64,000 bases of DNA from Citrobacter amalonaticus (GTDB taxonomy: Bacteria; Pseudomonadota; Gammaproteobacteria; Enterobacterales; Enterobacteriaceae), in NCBI RefSeq assembly GCF_018323885.1, contig NZ_AP024585.1, forward strand, positions 3,844,001 to 3,908,000, in the 5' to 3' direction. How positions within the stretch are numbered: the first letter of the stretch is position 1; the number at the start of each line of letters is the position of its first letter. Below are positions 1-19,377 of this stretch, in pieces. The position numbers and the translations under genes were made by a program. The notes below the pieces were generated by a model, which made no database searches, was not told the origin of the DNA, and worked only from the letters and a program-made list of their open reading frames with translations.

Positions 1-1141
1 GCATCAAGGGCATATCGCCAATTTCATCGAGAAACAGCGTTCCACTGTTTGCCGCCTGTATCAGGCCCGTTTTCCCATTGGCGGAGGCGCCGGTGAATGC
101 GCCTTTAACATAGCCAAACAGTTCACTTTCCAGCAACTGCTCCGGTATCGCCGCGCAGTTGATGGCGATAAACGGTTTATTGCGTCGATCGCTGAGTTTG
201 TGAATGGCGCGCGCGACCACCTCTTTTCCGGTGCCGCTCTCCCCCACAATCATGACGCTGGACGGACTGGGGGCAATACGGCCGATCAGCCGCTTAAGCT
301 GGCGCATAACCCGGCATTCACCCACCAGTTGTTCAATATGCGGTTCATCGGTGGCAATCGATACAGAGGAACTGGTATGCGACTGATGGAAGGCCATCAG
401 GAATAACTGCCGTCCCTGCACATGATGCAACTGACCAATGATCAGTTCACTTTTATCATCCCAGGAGACGATATGCTGCATATGCCCGTGCGTGAAATTA
501 CTTTCAAACGTTAATGGCCGAAACCTGACCGACTTTCCCACCATATTATTCTGCACCGCACCAAGAATTTTTAACGCGGTTTGATTCGCGAACTGTACGC
601 GGTTGTCTTCATCAATGACCAATACACCTTGATCCATATTCTCGATCATTGTCGAAAATATTTTACTGATGTTGTCACTCCCACTCTGATCTTCAAGAAG
701 TTTTGAAACAAAAATAGTGGATATATGGCGAACATAGTCTGAAAACTCGCGCAGGTTGTCATTGATATGTTCCTGCTGTTCATGCGTTACGGCAATCAAA
801 CTGATCACTCCTACACAGCGGTCCTGCAGAATGACGGGGGTTCCCAGAAAAGCCTTCTCGCGACAGTTATCTTTGCTATCGCAGCCTTCACAGAGCGGGT
901 CAAAGCGGGAATGCGTCACAACCTTTTCTTTTTTACTTTCCAGTACATAGCGCAACAGTCTGGAGTTACCGCTCAACGGGCGTCCGAGGTATTTCCCGTA
1001 AGCGCCGGTTCCCGCGACGCGGCAGAGGTTATCATCGACGATCTCAACTTCGAGTTGCAAAACGCTGGCAAGCATTCTGGCGAAACGCTGAATGGTAGGT
1101 TGAATCTGCATCAAAATGGACTGCGTTGTTGCAAGCACCAT
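1..1141 (-). CDS. ygeV: Sigma54-dependent transcriptional activator YgeV (UacR), C-terminal part outside window
   Basis: Reading leftwards from an ATG at 1141-1139, an open frame runs through the window edge (about 380 residues present; the E. coli protein has about 590). The N-terminal part is a sensory region with a cysteine cluster (CEGC then C near residues 85-95), followed by a PAS-like segment ([20 protein letters not shown]). The AAA+ domain then begins with the Walker A motif GESGTGKE and the sigma54-contact loop [13 protein letters not shown]. The remaining AAA+ part and the Fis-type helix-turn-helix lie outside. The gene is divergent from ygeW, and two candidate sigma54 promoters lie in this cluster, so it is the obvious local activator. 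The family is linked to urate/purine catabolism in E. coli; the effector is not visible here. Confidence 0.95.
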
Positions 1142-1450
1142 AGTCTTACCTTCCGGAATCACTTAAATGATTGATCATTGAAGACATTGATGGTTCGTAG
1201 AATATAAGGATACTAACTCAGACAAAATTTGCTTTGATAAAAACACAGGCTCTTTATCATTTTATAATGAAAATATGCAAGAGAAATCACATTTCTATAT
1301 CAATATGAGAATCAGCGCAGTGAGTTTATCAAACTGACGGTATTTACTCTTCTTCCGGGTATTATTCTGTCAGTCAGTTCATTGACACATTGCGTTATTT
1401 ATTAAGCCAAACGTTTTCGTATATTCATGACGAATTACAGATAGCTTTAT

Positions 1451-1468
1451 TTTGTGATCAGTGCCACA
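1451..1468. promoter_or_regulatory. CRP-like / activator dyad upstream of ygeW
   Basis: TTTGTGATCAGTGCCACA reads as TGTGA-N6-CCACA, one base from the CRP consensus TGTGA-N6-TCACA. The same TTTGTGA half-site recurs before ygfK. It lies about 45 bases upstream of the -24 element, suitable for either CRP or an upstream activator such as YgeV. Confidence 0.45.
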
Positions 1469-1511
1469 TATTGCCTGATGATTTCCTATTTATCCGCCGT
1501 CGGATTCATTT

Positions 1512-1527
1512 TGGCACGCTTATTGTT
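1512..1527 (+). promoter_or_regulatory. Candidate sigma54 promoter of ygeW operon
   Basis: TGGCACGCTTATTGTT matches the sigma54 consensus TGGCACG-N4-TTGCW. The -24 half is perfect; the -12 half has GT instead of GC. Its first base is 97 bases upstream of the ygeW start codon and it faces ygeW, next to the gene for a sigma54 activator. Confidence 0.55.
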
Positions 1528-1608
1528 AGTCCCTGGTATATCGGTGATGCCGCTTGTCATTACCGCGAATAAGCCACCTTGCCGTCATTCCACTACCAGG
1601 ACCTTACC

Positions 1609-2796
1609 ATGAAAACTGTTAATGAGCTGATAAAGGATATCAATTCGCTGACCTCACACCTTCACGAGAAGGATTTTTTGCTTACGTGGGAACAGACGCC
1701 GGATGAACTGAAACAAGTCCTGGACGTCGCTGCTGCGCTGAAGATGCTGCGTGCCGAAAACATCGCGACCAAAGTCTTCAATAGTGGATTAGGGATTTCC
1801 GTTTTCCGCGATAACTCCACCCGTACCCGCTTTTCTTACGCGTCCGCCCTTAACCTGCTCGGCCTGGCTCAGCAGGATCTGGACGAAGGAAAATCACAAA
1901 TCGCACACGGCGAAACCGTCCGCGAAACGGCCAATATGATCTCCTTCTGCGCCGACGCCATTGGTATTCGCGACGACATGTATCTTGGTGCGGGCAACGC
2001 CTATATGCGTGAAGTCGGCGCCGCGCTGGATGACGGCTACAAACAGGGCGTGCTGCCGCAGCGTCCGGCGTTAGTTAACCTGCAATGCGATATCGACCAT
2101 CCAACACAGGCGATGGCGGATTTGGCCTGGCTACGTGAACATTTTGGTTCGCTGGAAAACCTTAAGGGTAAAAAAATCGCCATGACCTGGGCCTACTCAC
2201 CCAGCTACGGCAAACCCCTCTCTGTGCCACAAGGCATTATCGGTCTGATGACCCGCTTCGGTATGGACGTCACCCTGGCGCATCCGGAAGGATATGACCT
2301 GATCCCGGACGTGATTGAAGTGGCGAAAAACAACGCGAACGCGTCCGGCGGCAGCTTCCGCCAGGTCACCAGCATGGAAGAAGCCTTCAAAGATGCCGAC
2401 ATCGTCTATCCGAAATCATGGGCGCCTTACAAAGTGATGGAAGAACGTACCGAACTTCTGCGCGCCAACGATCACGCGGCCCTGAAAGAGCTGGAAAGAC
2501 AGTGTCTTGAGCAAAACGCAAAGCATAAAAACTGGCACTGCACTGAAGAAATGATGCAACTCACCCGCGACGGCGAAGCGCTGTATATGCACTGCCTGCC
2601 CGCGGATATCAGCGGCGTCTCCTGCAAAGAAGGGGAAGTCACCGACGCCGTATTCGAAAAATACCGCATCGCAACGTACAAAGAAGCCAGTTGGAAGCCC
2701 TACATCATCGCCGCGATGATCCTCTCCCGCAAATATCCGAAGCCTGGCGTACTGCTGGAGCAGTTGTTGAAAGAAGCGCAACCACGCGTGAAATAA
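1609..2796 (+). CDS. ygeW: Knotted transcarbamylase YgeW
   Basis: A 395-residue member of the aspartate/ornithine transcarbamylase superfamily. Visible motifs are the carbamoyl-phosphate loop STRTR (residues 70-74), DHPTQ, and HCLPAD near the C terminus. The start at 1609 was chosen over an in-frame ATG at 1579 because MKTVNELIKD matches the E. coli protein and an AGGA lies just upstream. The true substrate of YgeW is unsettled. Since ygeX (diaminopropionate lyase) and yqeA (carbamate kinase) are in the same operon, I infer that it runs in the catabolic direction, moving a carbamoyl group from N-carbamoyl-2,3-diaminopropionate or a similar ureido acid to phosphate. It is the first gene of the operon. 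Confidence 0.95.
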   Translation: MKTVNELIKDINSLTSHLHEKDFLLTWEQTPDELKQVLDVAAALKMLRAENIATKVFNSGLGISVFRDNSTRTRFSYASALNLLGLAQQDLDEGKSQIAHGETVRETANMISFCADAIGIRDDMYLGAGNAYMREVGAALDDGYKQGVLPQRPALVNLQCDIDHPTQAMADLAWLREHFGSLENLKGKKIAMTWAYSPSYGKPLSVPQGIIGLMTRFGMDVTLAHPEGYDLIPDVIEVAKNNANASGGSFRQVTSMEEAFKDADIVYPKSWAPYKVMEERTELLRANDHAALKELERQCLEQNAKHKNWHCTEEMMQLTRDGEALYMHCLPADISGVSCKEGEVTDAVFEKYRIATYKEASWKPYIIAAMILSRKYPKPGVLLEQLLKEAQPRVK

Positions 2797-2802
2797 CCCC
2801 CT

Positions 2803-2824
2803 GAGCCGACCTGCCGGTCGGCTC
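2803..2824 (+). other. Intercistronic hairpin ygeW/ygeX
   Basis: Perfect 9-bp arms, GAGCCGACC (2803-2811) and GGTCGGCTC (2816-2824), enclose a TGCC loop. Only a short TCCTTT follows, so this is at best a weak terminator; a role in mRNA processing or stability is as likely. Confidence 0.8.
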
Positions 2825-2852
2825 TCCTTTCCGGAGGCCAAAAGGATAGGAT

Positions 2853-4049
2853 ATGTCCGTTTTCTCACTGAAGATCGATATTGCCGATAACCGCTTTTAC
2901 AACGGTGAAACATCGCCCCTTTTTTCGCAAAAACAGGCCAAAGTGGCTCGCCAGTTCCATCAAAAGATCGCGGGCTACCACCCAACGCCGCTCTGTGCGC
3001 TGGATGACCTCGCCCAACTGTTTGGCGTGAAAAAAATCCTCGTCAAAGATGAGTCAAAACGCTTTGGACTGAACGCGTTCAAGATGCTCGGCGGGGCTTT
3101 TGCCATCGCCTGCCTGTTGTGTGAGAAATATCATCTTGATATTGAGACGCTCTCTTTCGAACAGCTCAAAAACGCCATCGGCGAAAAAATGACGTTTGCC
3201 ACCACCACCGACGGTAACCACGGTCGCGGTATTGCCTGGGCGGCACAACAACTCGGACAACATGCGGTGGTTTACATGCCGAAAGGCTCAGCGCAAGAAC
3301 GCGTGGACGCCATTCTCAACCTCGGCGCGGAGTGCATTGTCACCGACATGAACTATGACGATACCGTTCGTCTGACCATGCAGCACGCCCAACAAAACGG
3401 CTGGGAAGTGGTGCAGGACACCGCCTGGGAAGGTTACACCAAAATCCCCACCTGGATTATGCAGGGCTACGCCACGCTGGCCGATGAGGCCGTTGAGCAA
3501 ATGCGCTCCCTGGACGTCACACCGACCCACGTGCTGTTACAGGCTGGCGTTGGCGCCATGGCGGGCGGCGTGCTGGGCTATCTGGTCGACGTCTATGGCC
3601 CGCAAAACCTGCACAGCATTATCGTCGAACCGGACAAAGCGGACTGTATTTATCGTTCCGGCGTGAAAGGCGACATCGTCAACGTTGGGGGAGATATGGC
3701 AACCATCATGGCCGGTCTGGCCTGTGGTGAACCTAACCCGCTCGGCTGGGAAATTCTGCGCAACTGCGCCACCCAATTTATCTCCTGCCAGGACAGCGTC
3801 GCCGCGCTGGGCATGCGCGTGCTGGGTAATCCTTTTGGCAGCGACCCACGGGTGATCTCCGGCGAGTCCGGCGCCGTAGGATTGGGCGTTCTGGCTGCCG
3901 TCCATCATCACCCACAGCGCCAGGCCCTGATGGACAAACTGGCGTTAGATAAAGATGCCGTTGTGCTGGTCATCAGTACCGAAGGCGATACCGATGTGAA
4001 GCACTACCGGGAAGTGGTCTGGGAAGGCAAACATCCGGTCGCACTGTAA
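2853..4049 (+). CDS. ygeX: 2,3-diaminopropionate ammonia-lyase YgeX (DpaL)
   Basis: A PLP enzyme of the beta family, 398 residues, exactly the length of the E. coli enzyme. It splits 2,3-diaminopropionate into pyruvate and two ammonia. The Schiff-base lysine is K77 in [20 protein letters not shown] contributes to substrate/PLP phosphate binding, and a glycine-rich loop follows at [13 protein letters not shown]. It lies 56 bases after ygeW with a hairpin in the spacer; AGGATAGGAT precedes the ATG. In E. coli and gut anaerobes the gene belongs to the set needed for anaerobic urate use. Its reaction would yield pyruvate as the carbon end product. Confidence 0.97.
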
Positions 4050-4064
4050 CCCCCTATTGGAAAA

Positions 4065-4088
4065 CGCTCCCCAGGAGATTCGGGAGCG
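4065..4088 (+). other. Intercistronic hairpin ygeX/ygeY
   Basis: CGCTCCC (4065-4071) pairs with GGGAGCG (4082-4088) across a 10-base loop, 16 bases after the ygeX stop. There is no T-run, so readthrough into ygeY is expected. Confidence 0.75.
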
Positions 4089-4105
4089 AACACTGGAGAA
4101 AAGTC

Positions 4106-5317
4106 ATGGCTAAGCACATTCCTTTTAAACTGATTCTTGAAAAAGCAAACGACTACAAAGAAGACATGACGCGTTTCCTGCGCGACATGGTCGCCATTCC
4201 CAGCGAAAGCTGCGATGAAAAACGGGTTATCCATCGCATCAAACAAGAAATGGAGAAAGTCGGTTTCGATAAAGTCGAGATCGACCCGATGGGCAACATT
4301 CTGGGATACATCGGCCATGGCCCGCGCCTGGTCGCAATGGACGCGCATATCGACACGGTCGGTATCGGCAACATCAACAACTGGAATTTTGATCCCTATG
4401 AAGGGATGGAGACCGATGAACTGATCGGTGGACGCGGCACATCTGACCAGGAAGGCGGCATGGCGTCCATGGTTTACGCCGGGAAGATCATTAAAGATCT
4501 CGGTCTGGAAGATGAGTACACGCTGCTGGTCACCGGCACGGTACAGGAAGAGGACTGCGATGGTCTGTGCTGGCAGTACATCATTGAGCAATCCGGTATC
4601 CGTCCGGAGTTTGTTGTCAGTACCGAGCCGACTGATTGCCAGGTTTATCGTGGACAGCGCGGGCGCATGGAAATACGCATTGATGTGCAGGGAGTCAGTT
4701 GTCACGGTTCCGCCCCGGAACGCGGCGATAACGCCATTTTTAAAATGGGACCAATCCTCAACGAGTTACAGGAATTGTCACAACATCTGGCTTATGACGA
4801 ATTCCTCGGTAAAGGGACCTTAACCGTTTCCGAAATCTTCTTCACCTCGCCAAGCCGCTGCGCCGTGGCGGACAGTTGCGCCGTCTCCATCGACCGTCGT
4901 CTGACCTGGGGTGAAACCTGGGAAGGCGCGCTGGAAGAGATTCGCGCCCTGCCGGCTGTAAAAAAAGCCAATGCGGTGGTCTCGATGTACAACTATGACC
5001 GCCCTTCCTGGACCGGGCTGGTTTACCCGACCGAATGCTACTTCCCAACCTGGAAAGTGGAAGAAGATCACTTCACCGTCAAAGCGCTGGTCAATGCCTA
5101 TGAAGGTCTGTTCGGCAAAGCACCGGTGGTCGACAAGTGGACGTTCTCCACCAACGGCGTATCGATTATGGGACGTCACGGTATTCCGGTGATCGGTTTT
5201 GGTCCGGGTAAAGAACCCGAAGCCCACGCGCCAAATGAAAAAACCTGGAAATCACATCTGGTGACCTGCGCCGCGATGTACGCTGCCATTCCACTGTCCT
5301 GGCTGGCAACGAAATAA
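4106..5317 (+). CDS. ygeY: M20-family metallohydrolase YgeY
   Basis: A 403-residue zinc-dependent amidohydrolase of the M20 peptidase/deacetylase family. The first metal motif is DAHIDT (H81, D83), the shared aspartate is in RGTSDQEGG (D114), the catalytic glutamates are in GTVQEED (E148/E149), and the late histidine is in EAHAPNEK. The inserted dimerisation domain begins around [11 protein letters not shown]. The substrate is not proven. In this operon I infer hydrolysis of an amide or ureido intermediate between the ring-opening enzyme HyuA and diaminopropionate. It is co-transcribed with ygeX and hyuA. Confidence 0.95.
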
Positions 5318-10298: not shown

Positions 10299-10871
10299 AT
10301 GCCTGTCGTCGACTGTATAATTACTGCTGCTGGGTTATCATCCAGAATGGGAAAATGGAAAATGATGTTACCCTGGCACGCAGGAACAATTCTTGATGCA
10401 AGTATCAAAAACGCGCTGCAATTTTGTAACCGGGTGATATTAGTTTCCGGTTACCGCGCCACGGAGATACATAATCGCTATGCGAATCAGCCTAATATTA
10501 TTATTACGTACAATCCGGATTATGCTCAGGGTTTATTTACGTCAATTAAGGTTGGCGCTGCCGCCGTGAACAGCGGGCACTGCTTCATCACGCACGGTGA
10601 CATGCCTGAACTGAATAACGATATTTTCCGTAAAATCTGGGCGTTACGTAACGATAACGCACTTATCCCTTGCTATCAGGGCCAGCCCGGCCATCCTGTA
10701 TTACTTTCCAAAAAATGCCTGTTGCAGGCCATCTCACAACCGGATGTCAGCAATATGCGTCAGGCATTGCTGCGCGGAAAACATAATCTTATTGAAATAA
10801 ACGATGCCCGAATCACTCTGGATATTGATACACCAGAGGATTTTATCAATGCGCAGAATCGACACAGATAA
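10299..10871 (+). CDS. mocA: Molybdenum cofactor cytidylyltransferase MocA
   Basis: 190 residues with the MobA/MocA nucleotidyltransferase signature TAAGLSSRMG followed by K (GKWKMMLPW), the HGDMP metal-binding motif and the LDIDTPEDF end motif. MocA links CTP to molybdopterin to form the cytosine dinucleotide cofactor used by xanthine-dehydrogenase-like hydroxylases in E. coli. Its location between yqeC and ygfK fits supplying XdhD. Confidence 0.95.
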   Translation: MPVVDCIITAAGLSSRMGKWKMMLPWHAGTILDASIKNALQFCNRVILVSGYRATEIHNRYANQPNIIITYNPDYAQGLFTSIKVGAAAVNSGHCFITHGDMPELNNDIFRKIWALRNDNALIPCYQGQPGHPVLLSKKCLLQAISQPDVSNMRQALLRGKHNLIEINDARITLDIDTPEDFINAQNRHR

Positions 10872-11249: not shown

Positions 11250-14200
11250 ATGGGGGATATAATGCGTCCGATTCCGTTTGAGGAACTTTTGACGCGCCTA
11301 TTTGATGAATATCAGCAGCAGCGCTCGATCTTTGGTATTCCTGAGCAGCAGTTCTATTCACCGGAAAAAGGCAAATCGATAAGCGTATTTGGTGAAACCT
11401 GTGCCACCCCCGTCGGCCCCGCCGCCGGCCCGCACACCCAGCTCGCACAAAATATCATCACCTCCTGGCTGACTGGCGGTCGGTTTATTGAACTCAAAAC
11501 AGTGCAAATTCTCGATCGGCTCGAACTGGAAAAACCCTGTATTGATGCGGAAGATGAGTGCTTCAATACCGAATGGTCGACGGAATTTACCCTGCTGAAA
11601 GCATGGGATGAGTATCTTAAAGCCTGGTTCGCCCTGCATTTACTGGAGCAACTGCTGCAACCTTCAGGTAGCGATACCGGTAAATCGTTCATTTTTAATA
11701 TGAGCGTCGGCTATAACCTCGACGGCATCAAGCAACCGCCCATGCAGGCGTTCATCGACAGCATGATGGACGCATCCGCGCACCCTAAATTTGTGCAGTA
11801 CCGCGACACGCTACAGCGATGGCTGCATGATGAAACATTCCTCGCGCGCCACGGGTTGAACGCACATCGGGAACGTCTACAGGCGCTGCCGGGACGCATT
11901 CCCACAAAACTGGTGCAGGGCGTCACGCTGTCCACGATGCACGGCTGCCCACCGCACGAAATCGAAGCCATCTGCCGCTATATGCTGGAAGAAAAAGGGC
12001 TGAATACCTTTGTGAAGCTGAATCCGACGCTGCTGGGCTATTCACGCGTACGTGAAATTCTGGACAGCTGTGGCTTCGGTTATATCGGCTTAAAAGAAGA
12101 GTCATTTGAGCACGATCTGAAGCTCACCCAGGCGCTGGAAATGTTGCAGCGCCTGATGGCGCTGGCAAAAGAAAAGTCGCTGGGTTTTGGCGTAAAACTC
12201 ACCAACACCCTGGGCACCGTCAATAATAAAGGTGCGCTTCCCGGCGAAGAGATGTATATGTCTGGCCGGGCGCTGTTCCCGCTCTCAATCAACGTGGCGG
12301 CCGTGCTTTCCCGGGCCTTCGACGGCCAATTGCCCATCTCCTATTCCGGCGGCGCCAGCCAGTTGACCATCCGCGATATCTTTGACACCGGCATTCGTCC
12401 GATCACCATGGCGACCGACCTGTTAAAGCCAGGCGGTTACCTCCGACTCAGCGCCTGTATGCGTGAGCTGGAGTCTTCAGATGCGTGGGGAATGGAACAT
12501 GTCGATGTCGAACGACTGAATCGACTGGCGGAAGAGGCCGTCACGATGGCCTATACCCAAAAACACTGGAAACCTGAAGAGCGCATTGACGTGGCCGGCG
12601 GCTTGCCGCTGACCGACTGCTACGTCGCCCCGTGTATTACGGCCTGCGCCATCAAACAGGACATTCCGGAGTATATTCGCCTGCTGGGCGAGCAGCGTTA
12701 TGCCGACGCGCTGGAACTGATTTATCAGCGAAACGCCCTCCCGGCAATCACCGGTCATATCTGCGATCATCAGTGTCAGTACAACTGTACCCGTCTGGAC
12801 TATGACAGCGCTTTGAACATCCGTGAACTGAAAAAAGTGGCGCTGGAAAAGGGGTGGGATGAATACAAACAGCGCTGGCACAAACCCGCAGGCTCAGGCT
12901 CTCGTCATCCGGTTGCAGTCATCGGTGCGGGCCCGGCCGGGCTTGCGGCCGGTTACTTCCTTGCCCGGGCAGGACACCCGGTGACGCTATTTGAACGCGA
13001 AGCCAACGCGGGCGGCGTGGTGAAAAATATCATTCCTCAGTTCCGTATTCCGGCAGAACTCATCCAGCACGATATCGATTTTGTCGCCGATCACGGCGTG
13101 AAGTTCGAATATGGCTGTGCGCCTGATCTGACCGTACAGAGCCTGAAAGAAAAGGGGTTCCACTACGTTCTGATCGCAACCGGTACGGATAAAAACAGCG
13201 GCGTGAAGCTCGACGGCGATAACCCCAACATCTGGAAATCGCTTCCCTTCCTGCGTGAATACAATCAGGGAACTGCGTTGACGCTCGGTAAGCATGTGGC
13301 GATCGTCGGCGCGGGCAACACGGCGATGGACTGTGCCCGTGCGGCACTGCGCGTGCCGGGTGTGGAGAAAGTCACCGTGGTCTACCGCCGTTCGTTGCAG
13401 GAGATGCCCGCCTGGCGTGAAGAGTATGAAGAAGCCCTGCACGATGGGGTTGAGTTCCGTTTTCTCAACAACCCTGAACGTTTTGATGCGGATGGTACAC
13501 TCACCCTGCGCGTCATGACGCTCGGAGAGCCGGATGAGAAAGGACGGCGCCGCCCGGTTGAAACCGACGAAACGCTGACGCTGCACATCGATAGTCTGAT
13601 TACCGCCATTGGTGAACAGCAGGATACCGAAGCACTGAATGCAATGGGTGTTCCGCTTGACAGCAAAGGCTGGCCAGAGGTGAATCACAACGGCGAAACC
13701 CGCCTCACCGACGTGTTCATGATTGGCGACGTCCAGCGTGGTCCATCATCCATTGTTGCCGCCATCGGCTCTGCGCGTCGGGCCACGGATACCATCCTCT
13801 GGCGGGAAAATATCCGCTCCCACCATGGCGATAAACGCTGGAATAACGTCAGCCCCGCTGAAATCTATCAGCGTAAAGGCGAGATCGCGGTCGCGAAGGT
13901 CGATAAAGATGACCGTGACGCCTTTGTCGCCCAGGAAGCGGCCCGCTGCCTTGAATGCAACTATGTCTGCAGCAAATGCGTGGATGTCTGTCCGAACCGC
14001 GCCAATGTGTCAATTCCCGTGCCGGGATTCCAGAATCGCTTCCAGACGCTACATCTGGATGCTTACTGCAACGAATGCGGTAACTGCGCTCAATTCTGTC
14101 CGTGGCAGGGCAAGCCGTATAAAGACAAAGTCACGCTCTTTAGCCTGCCGCAGGATTTCGACAACAGCAGTAACCCGGGCTTCCTGGTGGAAGACGATCG

Positions 14201-14354
14201 GGTCAGGGTCCGGCTGAATGACCAAAGCTGGGTATTAAACATCAGCCATGATGGGCAGTTCGCCAGCATCCCGCCGGAACTGGATGACATGTGCCGCGTC
14301 ATTAGCTATGTCCACCAGCATCACCATTACCTGTTAGGCCGCGTGGAGGTGTAA
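11250..14354 (+). CDS. ygfK: Iron-sulfur flavo-oxidoreductase YgfK
   Basis: 1034 residues. The N-terminal half resembles the dihydroorotate/dihydropyrimidine dehydrogenase barrel (GETCATPVGPAAGPHTQ, GVTLSTMHGCPP). A GltD-type cysteine region follows (CYVAPCITAC, CDHQCQYNC), then two Rossmann folds for FAD and NAD(P)H (VIGAGPAGLAAG from about residue 556; IVGAGNTAMD from about 685), and ferredoxin-type cysteines near the C terminus (CLECNYVCSKCVDVCP from C900; CNECGNCAQFCP from C940). It therefore has the parts of a multi-cluster electron-transfer enzyme. It is required for anaerobic urate use in gut bacteria; its exact reaction is not established. ssnA begins two bases after its stop. Confidence 0.95.
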   Translation: MGDIMRPIPFEELLTRLFDEYQQQRSIFGIPEQQFYSPEKGKSISVFGETCATPVGPAAGPHTQLAQNIITSWLTGGRFIELKTVQILDRLELEKPCIDAEDECFNTEWSTEFTLLKAWDEYLKAWFALHLLEQLLQPSGSDTGKSFIFNMSVGYNLDGIKQPPMQAFIDSMMDASAHPKFVQYRDTLQRWLHDETFLARHGLNAHRERLQALPGRIPTKLVQGVTLSTMHGCPPHEIEAICRYMLEEKGLNTFVKLNPTLLGYSRVREILDSCGFGYIGLKEESFEHDLKLTQALEMLQRLMALAKEKSLGFGVKLTNTLGTVNNKGALPGEEMYMSGRALFPLSINVAAVLSRAFDGQLPISYSGGASQLTIRDIFDTGIRPITMATDLLKPGGYLRLSACMRELESSDAWGMEHVDVERLNRLAEEAVTMAYTQKHWKPEERIDVAGGLPLTDCYVAPCITACAIKQDIPEYIRLLGEQRYADALELIYQRNALPAITGHICDHQCQYNCTRLDYDSALNIRELKKVALEKGWDEYKQRWHKPAGSGSRHPVAVIGAGPAGLAAGYFLARAGHPVTLFEREANAGGVVKNIIPQFRIPAELIQHDIDFVADHGVKFEYGCAPDLTVQSLKEKGFHYVLIATGTDKNSGVKLDGDNPNIWKSLPFLREYNQGTALTLGKHVAIVGAGNTAMDCARAALRVPGVEKVTVVYRRSLQEMPAWREEYEEALHDGVEFRFLNNPERFDADGTLTLRVMTLGEPDEKGRRRPVETDETLTLHIDSLITAIGEQQDTEALNAMGVPLDSKGWPEVNHNGETRLTDVFMIGDVQRGPSSIVAAIGSARRATDTILWRENIRSHHGDKRWNNVSPAEIYQRKGEIAVAKVDKDDRDAFVAQEAARCLECNYVCSKCVDVCPNRANVSIPVPGFQNRFQTLHLDAYCNECGNCAQFCPWQGKPYKDKVTLFSLPQDFDNSSNPGFLVEDDRVRVRLNDQSWVLNISHDGQFASIPPELDDMCRVISYVHQHHHYLLGRVEV

Positions 14355-15713: not shown

Positions 15714-15730
15714 AGTGATGAGGAATGATG

Positions 15731-16510
15731 ATGATTGAACAATTTTTCAGGCCCGACTCCGTTGACCAGGCGCTGGAACTCAAGCGCCGCTATCAGGAGG
15801 ACGCCGTCTGGTTTGCCGGGGGCAGCAAACTTAACGCCACGCCAACGCGTACCGATAAGCGGATTGCCATTTCATTGCAGGATCTGGAACTGGAGTGGAT
15901 TGACTGGGACAATGGCGCATTGCGTATTGGGGCGATGACTCGCCTGCAACCGTTGCATGACGCCCGCTATCTCCCGGCGGCACTGCGTGAGGCGATAGGC
16001 TTTATCTACTCCCGCCATCTTCGCAACCAGTCGACCCTCGGCGGCGAGATTGCCGCGCAACAGCAAGAGTCCGTGTTACTCCCCGTCCTGCTGGCGCTGG
16101 ACGCCCAGTTGGTGTGTGGTGATGGCGAAACTCTGTCGCTGGAAAGCTATCTCGCCGATCCACGCGATCGCCTGCTCACCGAAATTATCATTAAAGATCC
16201 CTTCCGCCCTTGCGCCACGCGCAAAGTGAGCCGTTCACAGGCCGGATTAACCGTCGTGACGGCGGCGGTCGCGTTGACTGAGCACGGTGGCATGTGCATC
16301 GCGCTGGACGGCGTGGCGGACAAAGCACTGCGCCTGCGTGACGTGGAAACACAAACGCGAGAAGGTACGGAACTGGAACAGGCGGTCGCAAACGCCCTGT
16401 TCCCACAGGATGATATTCGGGGCAGCGCGGCCTATAAGCGCTATATCACCGGCGTGGTTGTCGCCGATCTGTATGCCGACTGTCTGATGGCCGGGGAGGA
16501 CGTTGTATGA
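15731..16510 (+). CDS. ygfM: FAD-type subunit homolog YgfM of molybdenum hydroxylase
   Basis: 259 residues, homologous to the FAD subunit of xanthine/CO dehydrogenases. Three consecutive ATGs occur (15725, 15728, 15731); the last fits the E. coli length and the AGGAA spacing. The usual FAD motifs are changed: the AGGTDL-type loop reads FAGGSKLNA and the TxGGNI-type loop reads STLGGEIAA. FAD binding is thus uncertain. The stop overlaps the xdhD start by four bases (ATGA), implying translational coupling and a physical complex with XdhD. Confidence 0.92.
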   Translation: MIEQFFRPDSVDQALELKRRYQEDAVWFAGGSKLNATPTRTDKRIAISLQDLELEWIDWDNGALRIGAMTRLQPLHDARYLPAALREAIGFIYSRHLRNQSTLGGEIAAQQQESVLLPVLLALDAQLVCGDGETLSLESYLADPRDRLLTEIIIKDPFRPCATRKVSRSQAGLTVVTAAVALTEHGGMCIALDGVADKALRLRDVETQTREGTELEQAVANALFPQDDIRGSAAYKRYITGVVVADLYADCLMAGEDVV

Positions 16511-19377
16511 TGATTCACTTCACATTGAACGGCATGGCCCGTGAAATGAAGATTAACCCGGGCGAAAACGTACAGAAGCTGCTGTTTAGCCTCGGCATGC
16601 ACTCCGTGCGCAACAGTGATGACGGATTCGGTTTCGCCGGTTCGGACGCGATTCTCTACAACGGTCGCATCGTCAATGCCTCATTACTGATTGCCGCGCA
16701 GTTGGATCACGCGGAGATTCGCACCAGCGAATCACTCGGTCAATGGAATGCGTTGAGCCTGGTACAACAGGCGATGGTGGATGTCGGCGTCGTGCAGTCC
16801 GGTTATAACGATCCGGCCGCCGCATTGATCATCACCGATCTGCTGGAACGAATCGCGAATCCTACCCGTGAAGAGATTGACGATGCGTTGTCCGGCCTGT
16901 TCAGTCGTGATGCGGGTTGGCAGCAATATTATCAGGTGATCGAACTGGCGGTGGCGCGTAAAAACGATCCGCAAGCCCGTATGACTGTCGCCCCCACTTT
17001 CCGCGACGATCTCGCGGTGATTGGTAAACCCTGGCCAAAAACCGATGCGGCCAAAATGGTCCAGGCCAAACCCTGCTATGTGGAAGACCGTATCACCCCA
17101 GACGCCTGCGTAATTAAAATGCTGCGCAGTCCGCACGCCCATGCGTTGATCACTCATCTCGACGTCAGCAAAGCCGAAGCATTGCCCGGCGTGGTTCACG
17201 TGATCACCCACCGCAACTGCCCGGATATCTATTATACGCCCGGCGGGCAGAGCGCGCCTGAACCCTCCCCGCTTGACCGCCGCATGTTCGGCAAAAAAAT
17301 GCGCCATGTCGGCGATCGTGTTGCCGCCGTGGTTGCAGAGAGCGAAGAGATTGCGCTGGCCGCGCTCGAACTCATTGATGTGAAATATGATGTGCTTAAG
17401 CCGGTATTGTCGATAGACGAAGCCATGGCAGACGATGCACCCGTCGTACACGATGAACCGGTAGTGTACGTTGCAGGCGCGCCACAGACACTGGAAGAAG
17501 ATAACCGCCATGCCGCCCAACGTGGCGAGCACATGGTCATCAACTTCCCGATTGGTTCACGCCCGCGGAAAAATATCGCCGCCAGCATTCATGGTCATAT
17601 CGGCGATATGGAGAAAGGGTTTGCCGAAGCGGATGTGGTCATCGAGCGCACTTATCACTCCACACAGGCGCAGCAGTGTCCGGCAGAGCCTCACATCTGT
17701 TTTACGCGCATGGACGGCGATCGCCTGATCATTCACGCCTCAACTCAGGTACCGTGGCACCTTCGCCGCCAGGTTGCCCGTCTCGTTGGCATGAAGCAGC
17801 ACAAAGTCCACGTCATTAAGGAACGCGTCGGCGGCGGCTTTGGTTCTAAACAGGACATCCTGCTGGAAGAAGTCTGCGCATGGGCGACCTGCGTGACCGG
17901 ACGCCCGGTCTATTTCCGCTATACCCGTGAAGAGGAGTTTATTGCCAATACCTCCCGTCACGTTGCAAAAGTCACGGTCAAACTTGGCGCGAAGAAAGAT
18001 GGTCGCCTGACGGCGGTCAAAATGGACTTCCGCGCCAATACTGGCCCATATGGCAACCATTCGTTGACCGTGCCGAGCAACGGCCCGGCGCTCTCGTTAC
18101 CGCTGTACCCCTGCGACAACGTCGATTTCCAGGTCACCACCTACTACAGCAATATCTGTCCGACGGGGGCGTATCAGGGCTATGGCGCGCCGAAAGGCAC
18201 CTTTGCGATGACGATGGCGTTAGCCGAACTTGCCGAACAACTGCACATTGATCAACTGGAGATCATCGAACGCAATCGGGTTCACGAGGGACAGGAACTG
18301 AAAATTCTCGGCGCGATCGGTGAAGGGAAAGCGCCAACCTCCGTTCCTTCCGCCGCCAGTTGCGCACTGGAAGCGATCCTGCGTCAGGGACGGAAGATGA
18401 TCGACTGGTCGTCGCCCAAACCACAGGACGGTGACTGGCGTACCGGTCGCGGGGTCGCCATTATTATGCAGAAATCAGGGATCCCGGACATCGATCAGGC
18501 GAACTGCATGATCAAACTGGAGTCCGATGGCACTTTCATCGTCCACTCCGGCGGCGCAGATATTGGCACCGGGCTGGATACGGTTGTCACTAAACTGACG
18601 GCGGAAGTGCTGCACTGTGCGCCAGAGGAAGTGCATGTCATTTCCGGCGATACTGACCATGCACTCTTCGACAAAGGCGCTTACGCCTCATCCGGCACCT
18701 GCTTCTCGGGGAACGCGGCGCGTAAGGCAGCAGAAAACCTGCGTGAGAAAATCCTCTTTCATGGAGCGCAGATGCTGGGTGAACCCGTTGCTGACGTTCA
18801 ACTGGTAGCACCTGGCGTTGTACGCGGCAAGCAGGGCGAAGTGAGTTACGCTGAGATCGCGCACAAAGCGGAGACGGGAACTGGTTTTGGCACGCTGGTC
18901 GCCACGGCCAGTTACATCACCGCAGACTTCGCATTTCCGTATGGGGCGAACTTCGCCGAAGTCGCGGTGAATACCCGAACCGGCGAAATCCGTCTCGACA
19001 AGTTCTACGCACTGCTGGACTGTGGCACACCGGTCAACCCGGAACTCGCACTCGGGCAAATCTACGGGGCGTCAATGCGGGCCATTGGCCATAGTCTGAG
19101 CGAAGAGATCCTCTATGATGCCGAAGGCCATCCGCTGACCCGCGATCTGCGCAGTTACGGTGCGCCAAAAATTGGCGACATCCCTCGGGATTTTCGTGCC
19201 GTTCTGGTGCCAAGCGACGATAAGGTTGGCCCCTTTGGTGCCAAATCGATCTCTGAAATTGGCGTTAACGGCGCGGCACCGGCCATTGCCACCGCTATTC
19301 ATGATGCCTGTGGCGTATGGTTACGCGAATGGCATTTCACACCGGAGAAAATACTGACCGCGCTGGAAAAAATGTAA
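16507..19377 (+). CDS. xdhD: Selenium-type molybdenum hydroxylase XdhD with degenerate Fe-S domain
   Basis: 956 residues. Residues about 1-150 have the fold pattern of the two [2Fe-2S] domains of xanthine dehydrogenase but no cysteine at all before C190. The large molybdopterin domains follow, with GGGFGSKQD and the active-site glutamate in GPFGAKSISEIGVNG (E917). The family is called probable hypoxanthine oxidase and is associated with selenium-dependent maturation (YqeB, YqeC, SelD). It likely hydroxylates a purine in the cytoplasm with YgfM and MocA-made cofactor. The start overlaps ygfM. Loss of the cluster ligands means electrons must leave the molybdenum centre another way. Confidence 0.95.
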   Translation: MMIHFTLNGMAREMKINPGENVQKLLFSLGMHSVRNSDDGFGFAGSDAILYNGRIVNASLLIAAQLDHAEIRTSESLGQWNALSLVQQAMVDVGVVQSGYNDPAAALIITDLLERIANPTREEIDDALSGLFSRDAGWQQYYQVIELAVARKNDPQARMTVAPTFRDDLAVIGKPWPKTDAAKMVQAKPCYVEDRITPDACVIKMLRSPHAHALITHLDVSKAEALPGVVHVITHRNCPDIYYTPGGQSAPEPSPLDRRMFGKKMRHVGDRVAAVVAESEEIALAALELIDVKYDVLKPVLSIDEAMADDAPVVHDEPVVYVAGAPQTLEEDNRHAAQRGEHMVINFPIGSRPRKNIAASIHGHIGDMEKGFAEADVVIERTYHSTQAQQCPAEPHICFTRMDGDRLIIHASTQVPWHLRRQVARLVGMKQHKVHVIKERVGGGFGSKQDILLEEVCAWATCVTGRPVYFRYTREEEFIANTSRHVAKVTVKLGAKKDGRLTAVKMDFRANTGPYGNHSLTVPSNGPALSLPLYPCDNVDFQVTTYYSNICPTGAYQGYGAPKGTFAMTMALAELAEQLHIDQLEIIERNRVHEGQELKILGAIGEGKAPTSVPSAASCALEAILRQGRKMIDWSSPKPQDGDWRTGRGVAIIMQKSGIPDIDQANCMIKLESDGTFIVHSGGADIGTGLDTVVTKLTAEVLHCAPEEVHVISGDTDHALFDKGAYASSGTCFSGNAARKAAENLREKILFHGAQMLGEPVADVQLVAPGVVRGKQGEVSYAEIAHKAETGTGFGTLVATASYITADFAFPYGANFAEVAVNTRTGEIRLDKFYALLDCGTPVNPELALGQIYGASMRAIGHSLSEEILYDAEGHPLTRDLRSYGAPKIGDIPRDFRAVLVPSDDKVGPFGAKSISEIGVNGAAPAIATAIHDACGVWLREWHFTPEKILTALEKM

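Follow-up and report, generated by a model that had tools for sequence, protein, structure and literature searches.

How does an enzyme of the xanthine oxidase family move electrons to or from its molybdenum (Mo) site when its iron-sulfur (Fe-S) domain contains no cysteine with which to hold a cluster? This question is raised by XdhD, which is encoded in a 64,000-nucleotide stretch of the Citrobacter amalonaticus genome (contig NZ_AP024585.1, positions 3,844,001 to 3,908,000; hereafter, the window). Members of this family are electron-transfer chains consisting of Mo, two [2Fe-2S] clusters, and flavin adenine dinucleotide (FAD), and the architecture typified by Rhodobacter capsulatus xanthine dehydrogenase (XDH) passes electrons via both clusters. 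An original prediction, made from the window alone, held that XdhD keeps a [2Fe-2S]-type domain from which all eight cluster cysteines have been lost.

We confirm that this cluster-free state is real and conserved. The lost cysteines were not mentioned in the texts that we read, although most subscription journals lie outside it and prior notice elsewhere is possible. Our favored reading, to which we assign a probability of roughly 0.75, is that XdhD combines the Fe-S and Mo parts of a xanthine-oxidase-family enzyme in one cluster-free subunit and is paired with YgfM. In this reading, the enzyme is most likely the dehydroxylase that turns urate into yanthine in the reductive uric acid pathway, the domain serves as a scaffold, and Mo is reduced without such clusters. 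A conserved natural enzyme of this family with both clusters apparently gone, present in Escherichia coli and part of a recently described uric acid pathway of the gut, would be relevant to the engineering of urate-degrading probiotics. It also offers a matched natural comparison for the role of the clusters, with zero versus eight cysteines, the same Mo-site residues, and a similar gene cluster. The urate reductase role of E. coli XdhD has already been published (PMC12507026), and urate-to-yanthine activity is the most likely one for the window's XdhD.

The vestigial domain of XdhD

The features of XdhD that bear on this question are as follows.

16507..19377, + strand: XdhD (TIGR03313, 2058 bits versus a curated cut-off of 1101.9), 956 amino acids, a vestigial [2Fe-2S] domain fused to molybdopterin domains
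16507..16746, + strand: plant-ferredoxin-like half of the vestigial domain, residues 1-80, without cysteine
16603..16650, + strand: former cluster loop SVRNSDDGFGFAGSDA, residues 33-48, with lost ligands D38, A44, and D47; aligns gap-free to the cysteine-bearing SVRNGCDGEGSCGLCA
16681..16683, + strand: S59, the fourth-ligand position of the first cluster
16747..16956, + strand: helical half of the vestigial domain, residues 81-150, with a PF01799 match at residues 73-145
16795..16815, + strand: QSGYNDP, residues 97-103, with lost ligands S98 and N101; QCGYCTP in cysteine-bearing orthologs
16891..16917, + strand: SGLFSRDAG, residues 129-137, with lost ligands S133 and D135; LCRCTG in cysteine-bearing orthologs
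17569..19185, + strand: molybdopterin-binding domains, residues 355-893, with Q414, Q449, Q557, and E606; the catalytic E917 lies just beyond

Residues 1-150 of XdhD form a xanthine-oxidase-type [2Fe-2S] domain by profile (PF01799), sequence, and predicted fold, and in the structure model, whose confidence is high, this vestigial domain sits where the Fe-S domain belongs. Structure prediction and alignment, which might have exposed an unrelated N-terminal region, instead upheld the ferredoxin-type homology. The best structural match to the model is the aldehyde oxidoreductase MOP of Desulfovibrio gigas (1sij), which is likewise a fused Fe-S/Mo protein; MOP carries two [2Fe-2S] clusters, has no FAD subunit, and acts on an aldehyde substrate. 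The best sequence match in the PDB is 4-hydroxybenzoyl-CoA reductase (1rm6), a reductive dehydroxylase of the same family whose Fe-S subunit is cluster bearing and forms a separate chain (1rm6_C).

XdhD has the domains of the xanthine oxidase family (MoCoBD and a/b hammerhead; PF02738 at 249 bits, PF20256 at 231, and PF01315 at 107) but not the eight cysteines on which the family holds two [2Fe-2S] clusters. None of the eight ligand positions (D38, A44, D47, S59, S98, N101, S133, and D135) is a cysteine, and neither is any other residue before C190; XdhD is therefore a variant, not a typical member of the family. Six of these positions had been named correctly in the original prediction, while the remaining two, given as F43 and S46, were one residue off and fall at A44 and D47 in the gap-free alignment. 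From these residues, we infer that XdhD binds no [2Fe-2S] cluster. A new Fe-S site elsewhere in the protein was considered and rejected, the only near-invariant cysteines among 92 representatives being C619 (92/92) and C536 (88/92), without a cluster motif.

The Mo site, by comparison, is intact, as had been claimed: Q414, Q449, Q557, E606, and E917, the residues of that site, are identical in all 182 representatives, comprising 102 cluster-free sequences (4 of them with one ligand-column cysteine) and 80 cysteine-bearing ones. E606 has been proposed as an active-site residue for urate-to-yanthine reduction (PMC12507026).

The vestigial domain is maintained under purifying selection. The median ratio of nonsynonymous to synonymous substitution rates (dN/dS), calculated for 28 pairs drawn from 45 full-length coding sequences, was 0.043 for residues 1-150 and 0.033, 0.014, and 0.031 for three other domains. 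Pseudogene decay of the domain is ruled out by this low dN/dS, by the fixed substitutes at ligand columns, and by the high model confidence.

Cluster-free and cysteine-bearing orthologs

The cluster-free form is common to relatives in Pseudomonadota, Spirochaetota, and KSB3, although the family alignment called for in the original prediction revealed that the loss is not universal, since eight-cysteine orthologs exist. Among the best 120 homologs listed, none had a cysteine at a ligand column (one row was gapped in the first loop). The same was true (0/80) of named GTDB loci from Enterobacterales, Aeromonas, Vibrio, Photobacterium, Shewanella, Ferrimonas, Endozoicomonas, Rhodocyclaceae, and spirochaetes, many of which carry cysteines at other columns; these loci are the best 80 of 90 and are a biased sample, having been found by patterns taken from the cysteine-free motif. 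A search with the N-terminal region (best 120 of 386), biased in the same direction by its cysteine-free N-terminal words, yielded 103 further proteins, of which 3 had a single ligand-column cysteine. Two of 299 Pseudomonadota genomes, one of them the window's own, had a protein above the TIGR03313 cut-off, and both proteins were cysteine-free.

Orthologs with all eight cysteines were found in spirochaetes and others (L176, L179, and L180; P0224-P0343). In 247 Spirochaetota genomes, nine loci exceeded the cut-off, six being cluster-free (one with a lone cysteine at column 44) and three having eight cysteines, and a protein search from one cysteine-bearing XdhD returned eight cysteines in all of the best 120 of 6860 matches. 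Our least biased sample comes from 392 Spirochaetota genomes searched by means of a profile built from both groups, taking one match per genome at an E value of 1e-200 or better. It gave 61 matches, 50 of which had the fused domain, and these carried zero (32), one (6), or eight (12) ligand cysteines and never two to seven. The lone cysteine in the six copies was always at column 44, a variable small-residue position. The 11 uncounted matches were domain-less fragments or Mo subunits that are unfused and more distant; among them, G371 adjoins a separate Fe-S gene that has its cysteines. Across all 433 aligned members, a sample that carries the biases given above, none, one, and eight ligand cysteines occurred in 306, 4, and 123 sequences.

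The two forms share their family, fused layout, and Mo-site residues and differ by all eight cysteines. Only 13 columns cleanly separate the groups, six of them within the domain, and four of those six are at ligands. Purine gene clusters of the same type surround both forms, judging by the three cysteine-bearing loci inspected (L202-L204), all of which have YgfK, a GuaD/SsnA-like gene, and YgeW; L203 and L204 have in addition a clear SsnA and a YgfM upstream of XdhD, and L202 has a YgfM reading. The cluster-free spirochaete loci L206 and L207 contain YgfK, a GuaD-like gene, YgfM, and XdhD, with SsnA also present in L207.

How the two forms arose is less clear. A FastTree analysis of the Mo part (182 in-group and 11 outgroup rows) recovered both groups as clades, with one change and support values of 0.83 and 0.91. 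Quick IQ-TREE runs on the Mo part under LG+C20 (46 rows, and 45 in a repeat with two long outgroup rows removed) instead placed the cysteine-bearing clade within the cluster-free clade or near its base, although a single cluster-free clade was not rejected by the approximately unbiased test (p 0.288). In the domain itself, with ligand columns excluded, mean identity of 30 of the 80 cysteine-bearing representatives was 45.7% to 60 of the 102 cluster-free ones and 36.0% to 17 outgroup Fe-S sequences. Residues 33-48 of L176, L179, and L180 form an unusual C-x5-C-x2-C ferredoxin loop, compared with C-x4-C-x2-C in the 17 outgroup sequences, and since this one-residue insert is common to the cysteine-bearing and cluster-free domains, both probably derive from one fused ancestor. 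A domain swap as the source of the cysteine-bearing clade is not favored, given the shared insert and a domain nearer to the cluster-free form than to the outgroup.

Relaxation of YgfM after cluster loss was not seen: the median YgfM/XdhD divergence ratio was 1.76 over 66 cluster-free pairs and, at comparable XdhD identity, 2.0 in 24 of these pairs versus 2.4-2.6 in 3 cysteine-bearing pairs. It is conceivable, though we think it improbable, that a cluster-free urate reductase of the xanthine oxidase family, using single-site Mo chemistry with no Fe-S wire, has long been kept beside cluster-bearing orthologs of the same pathway and that, if the mixture-model trees are right, eight cysteines returned together.

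Electron supply to the molybdenum site

The genes upstream of xdhD encode its presumed partner and further proteins.

15725..16510, + strand: YgfM (TIGR03312, 430 bits), FAD subunit, with FAD binding predicted from its sequence
11250..14354, + strand: YgfK (TIGR03315), Fe-S/flavin protein, reported as a yanthine reductase (PMC12507026)
14357..15685, + strand: SsnA (TIGR03314), amidohydrolase of the same pathway
10299..10871, + strand: MocA/YgfJ (TIGR03310), Mo-cofactor cytidylyltransferase

The ygfM stop and the xdhD start share four bases (ATGA). A YgfM match was present in all 80 named XdhD loci, ending within 120 nucleotides of XdhD in 79; in the 80th (L117), the YgfM frame directly adjoins XdhD. 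The FAD-type motifs GG...N and RN..T.GG are retained in at least 90% of 81 rows; YgfM partners of cysteine-bearing XdhD also show such motifs. One protein, P0007 (1215 amino acids; 43 member sequences), is a YgfM-XdhD fusion, apparently produced by a change of frame where the two genes meet.

FAD and Mo lie more than 25 Å apart in solved homologs, and for separations of 25-28 Å a standard tunnelling formula gives rates of ~1e-5 to 7e-3 per second. Li et al. (2025; PMC12507026) reported that E. coli XdhD, which is ~91% identical to the window's protein and shares its gene order and E606, turns urate into yanthine in an assay listing NADH (reduced nicotinamide adenine dinucleotide), urate, and enzyme (10 µM), and that a 30 kDa protein, "putatively YgfM," was purified along with it. 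They proposed that electrons enter from NADH at the FAD of YgfM, within an R. capsulatus XDH-like complex; XdhD is described elsewhere as having no FAD domain (PMC7191737). The terms "2Fe-2S" and "cysteine" have no occurrences in the main text of PMC12507026. XdhD has ligands for neither cluster, and the proposed scheme, NADH to FAD to Mo, therefore leaves more than 25 Å unbridged. Percudani's commentary counts the physiological donor of the clostridial enzyme among the unknowns and notes that kinetics have yet to be measured (PMC12990295).

The original prediction was right that some electron route other than the usual clusters is needed. Its label of hydroxylase does not fit the reported reductase activity of E. 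coli XdhD (PMC12507026), and its proposed electron outlet, YgfK, fares poorly for the reasons given below. We suggest that the vestigial domain acts as a scaffold, packing against the Mo domains and docking YgfM, rather than as a wire, and that Mo would undergo two-electron reduction by a route bypassing [2Fe-2S] clusters. That route is the least certain part of our explanation. We tentatively put most weight on a donor that reduces Mo directly at its site, either a diffusible two-electron donor or, in a ping-pong fashion, a second organic substrate; very slow or rearranged transfer from the FAD of YgfM and donation by an external protein such as YgfK are possible but doubtful, and any other route is unlikely.

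Several observations weigh against our favored reading. The N-terminal domain has a somewhat higher rate of evolution than the Mo domains, and the nesting of the cysteine-bearing clade in both mixture-model trees leaves some doubt about a single, simple loss. In addition, the published formation of yanthine with NADH looks like FAD-to-Mo transfer without clusters, although the text that we read states no rate, NADH-free control, or metal analysis of XdhD (PMC12507026).

That result speaks for NADH electrons passing through the FAD of YgfM straight across the former cluster region, slowly or with rearranged docking, as do the retained YgfM motifs and the adjoining gene. At 25 Å, however, tunnelling would at best reach ~0.007 per second, and with 10 µM enzyme (PMC12507026) a few turnovers could show; we regard this route as possible, on balance improbable. 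We give about the same limited credence to single-site, transhydroxylase-like chemistry, in which Mo would be reduced by oxidizing another organic substrate in the same pocket and would then reduce urate. Mo sites of this family run hydroxylation both ways, the Mo-site residues are fully conserved, and clusters would not be needed. Such a cycle is without a known donor, however, and would leave the conserved FAD subunit roleless, and a published xdhA mutant did not consume xanthine, which speaks against xanthine as the donor (PMC12507026).

Docking of YgfK, a ferredoxin, or another enzyme's subunit on the vestigial domain, to give or take electrons, is somewhat more doubtful. YgfK shares the operon, contains several Fe-S motifs, and exceeds the cut-off in 23 of 27 XdhD genomes, and an interaction between PaoC and XdhD observed in E. 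coli makes other partners possible (PMC13246756). YgfK is nevertheless reported as a separate reductase that acts next, on yanthine, and is not among the listed components of the XdhD-YgfM assay (PMC12507026). It fits less well as a donor because it also stands beside cysteine-bearing XdhD (3/3 genomes) and its readable Fe-S cysteine motifs, in partial copies, are alike in both kinds of loci. A cut or split contig accounts for two of the four genomes without a full YgfK; the drafts G358 (Propionivibrio) and G359 have XdhD and no full YgfK above the cut-off. Supply in trans by XdhC, the separate Fe-S subunit of XdhABC, seems quite unlikely: another Fer2_2 match accompanies XdhD in 17/18 and 14/14 genomes in two surveys, and xdhC lies just upstream of the window, but in the model the position of the Fe-S domain is already filled by the vestigial domain, and a draft of Arsenophonus nasoniae has XdhD and YgfM and no other Fer2_2 match. 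Least probable is that clusters are still held through Asp, Ser, and Asn; D38, D47, S98, and N101 are nearly invariant, but A44 cannot ligate, and columns 59, 133, and 135 vary (mainly S/N/G, S/N/I/V/H/L, and D/A/S/E, respectively).

Gene region and neighboring loci

The window region is an Enterobacteriaceae-like purine degradation region with ~80% DNA identity to E. coli across xdhD and its neighbors, and 5131 of 5426 E. coli genomes have matches to the xdhD region. Among the 80 named loci, the closest is that of Citrobacter sp. R56, whose XdhD is 94% identical. The XdhABC genes just upstream of the window encode an E. coli-type xanthine dehydrogenase of the same family that, unlike XdhD, has a separate XdhC with all eight cysteines (L141).

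Some loci carry a second complete XDH-type set upstream of YgfM-XdhD (L066, L068, and L071 at ~1.9-6.9 kb; L126 at 769-4381). These sets, from Shewanella, Photobacterium, Aliivibrio, and spirochaete loci, comprise Mo (~714-734 amino acids), cysteine-containing Fe-S (~156-175 amino acids), and FAD (~283-322 amino acids) subunits. The locus of Propionivibrio dicarboxylicus (L122; genome G358) has YgfM-XdhD and no YgfK or SsnA match within its 18.9 kb; elsewhere in that genome, a 688-amino-acid frame matching the N-terminal part of YgfK only lies near an 893-amino-acid frame with Fer2_2. Residue 242 of YgfK (window 11973-11975) is Cys in 15/15 sequences from cluster-free loci and Ala, Gly, or a gap in the 3 from cysteine-bearing loci. 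Another genome of the same genus as the window (G300) has two full-length XdhD loci (C1:2789985-2792837 and C1:3459716-3462568), each with XdhA-type and XdhC-type matches ~17-20 kb upstream, which suggests a duplicated purine region.

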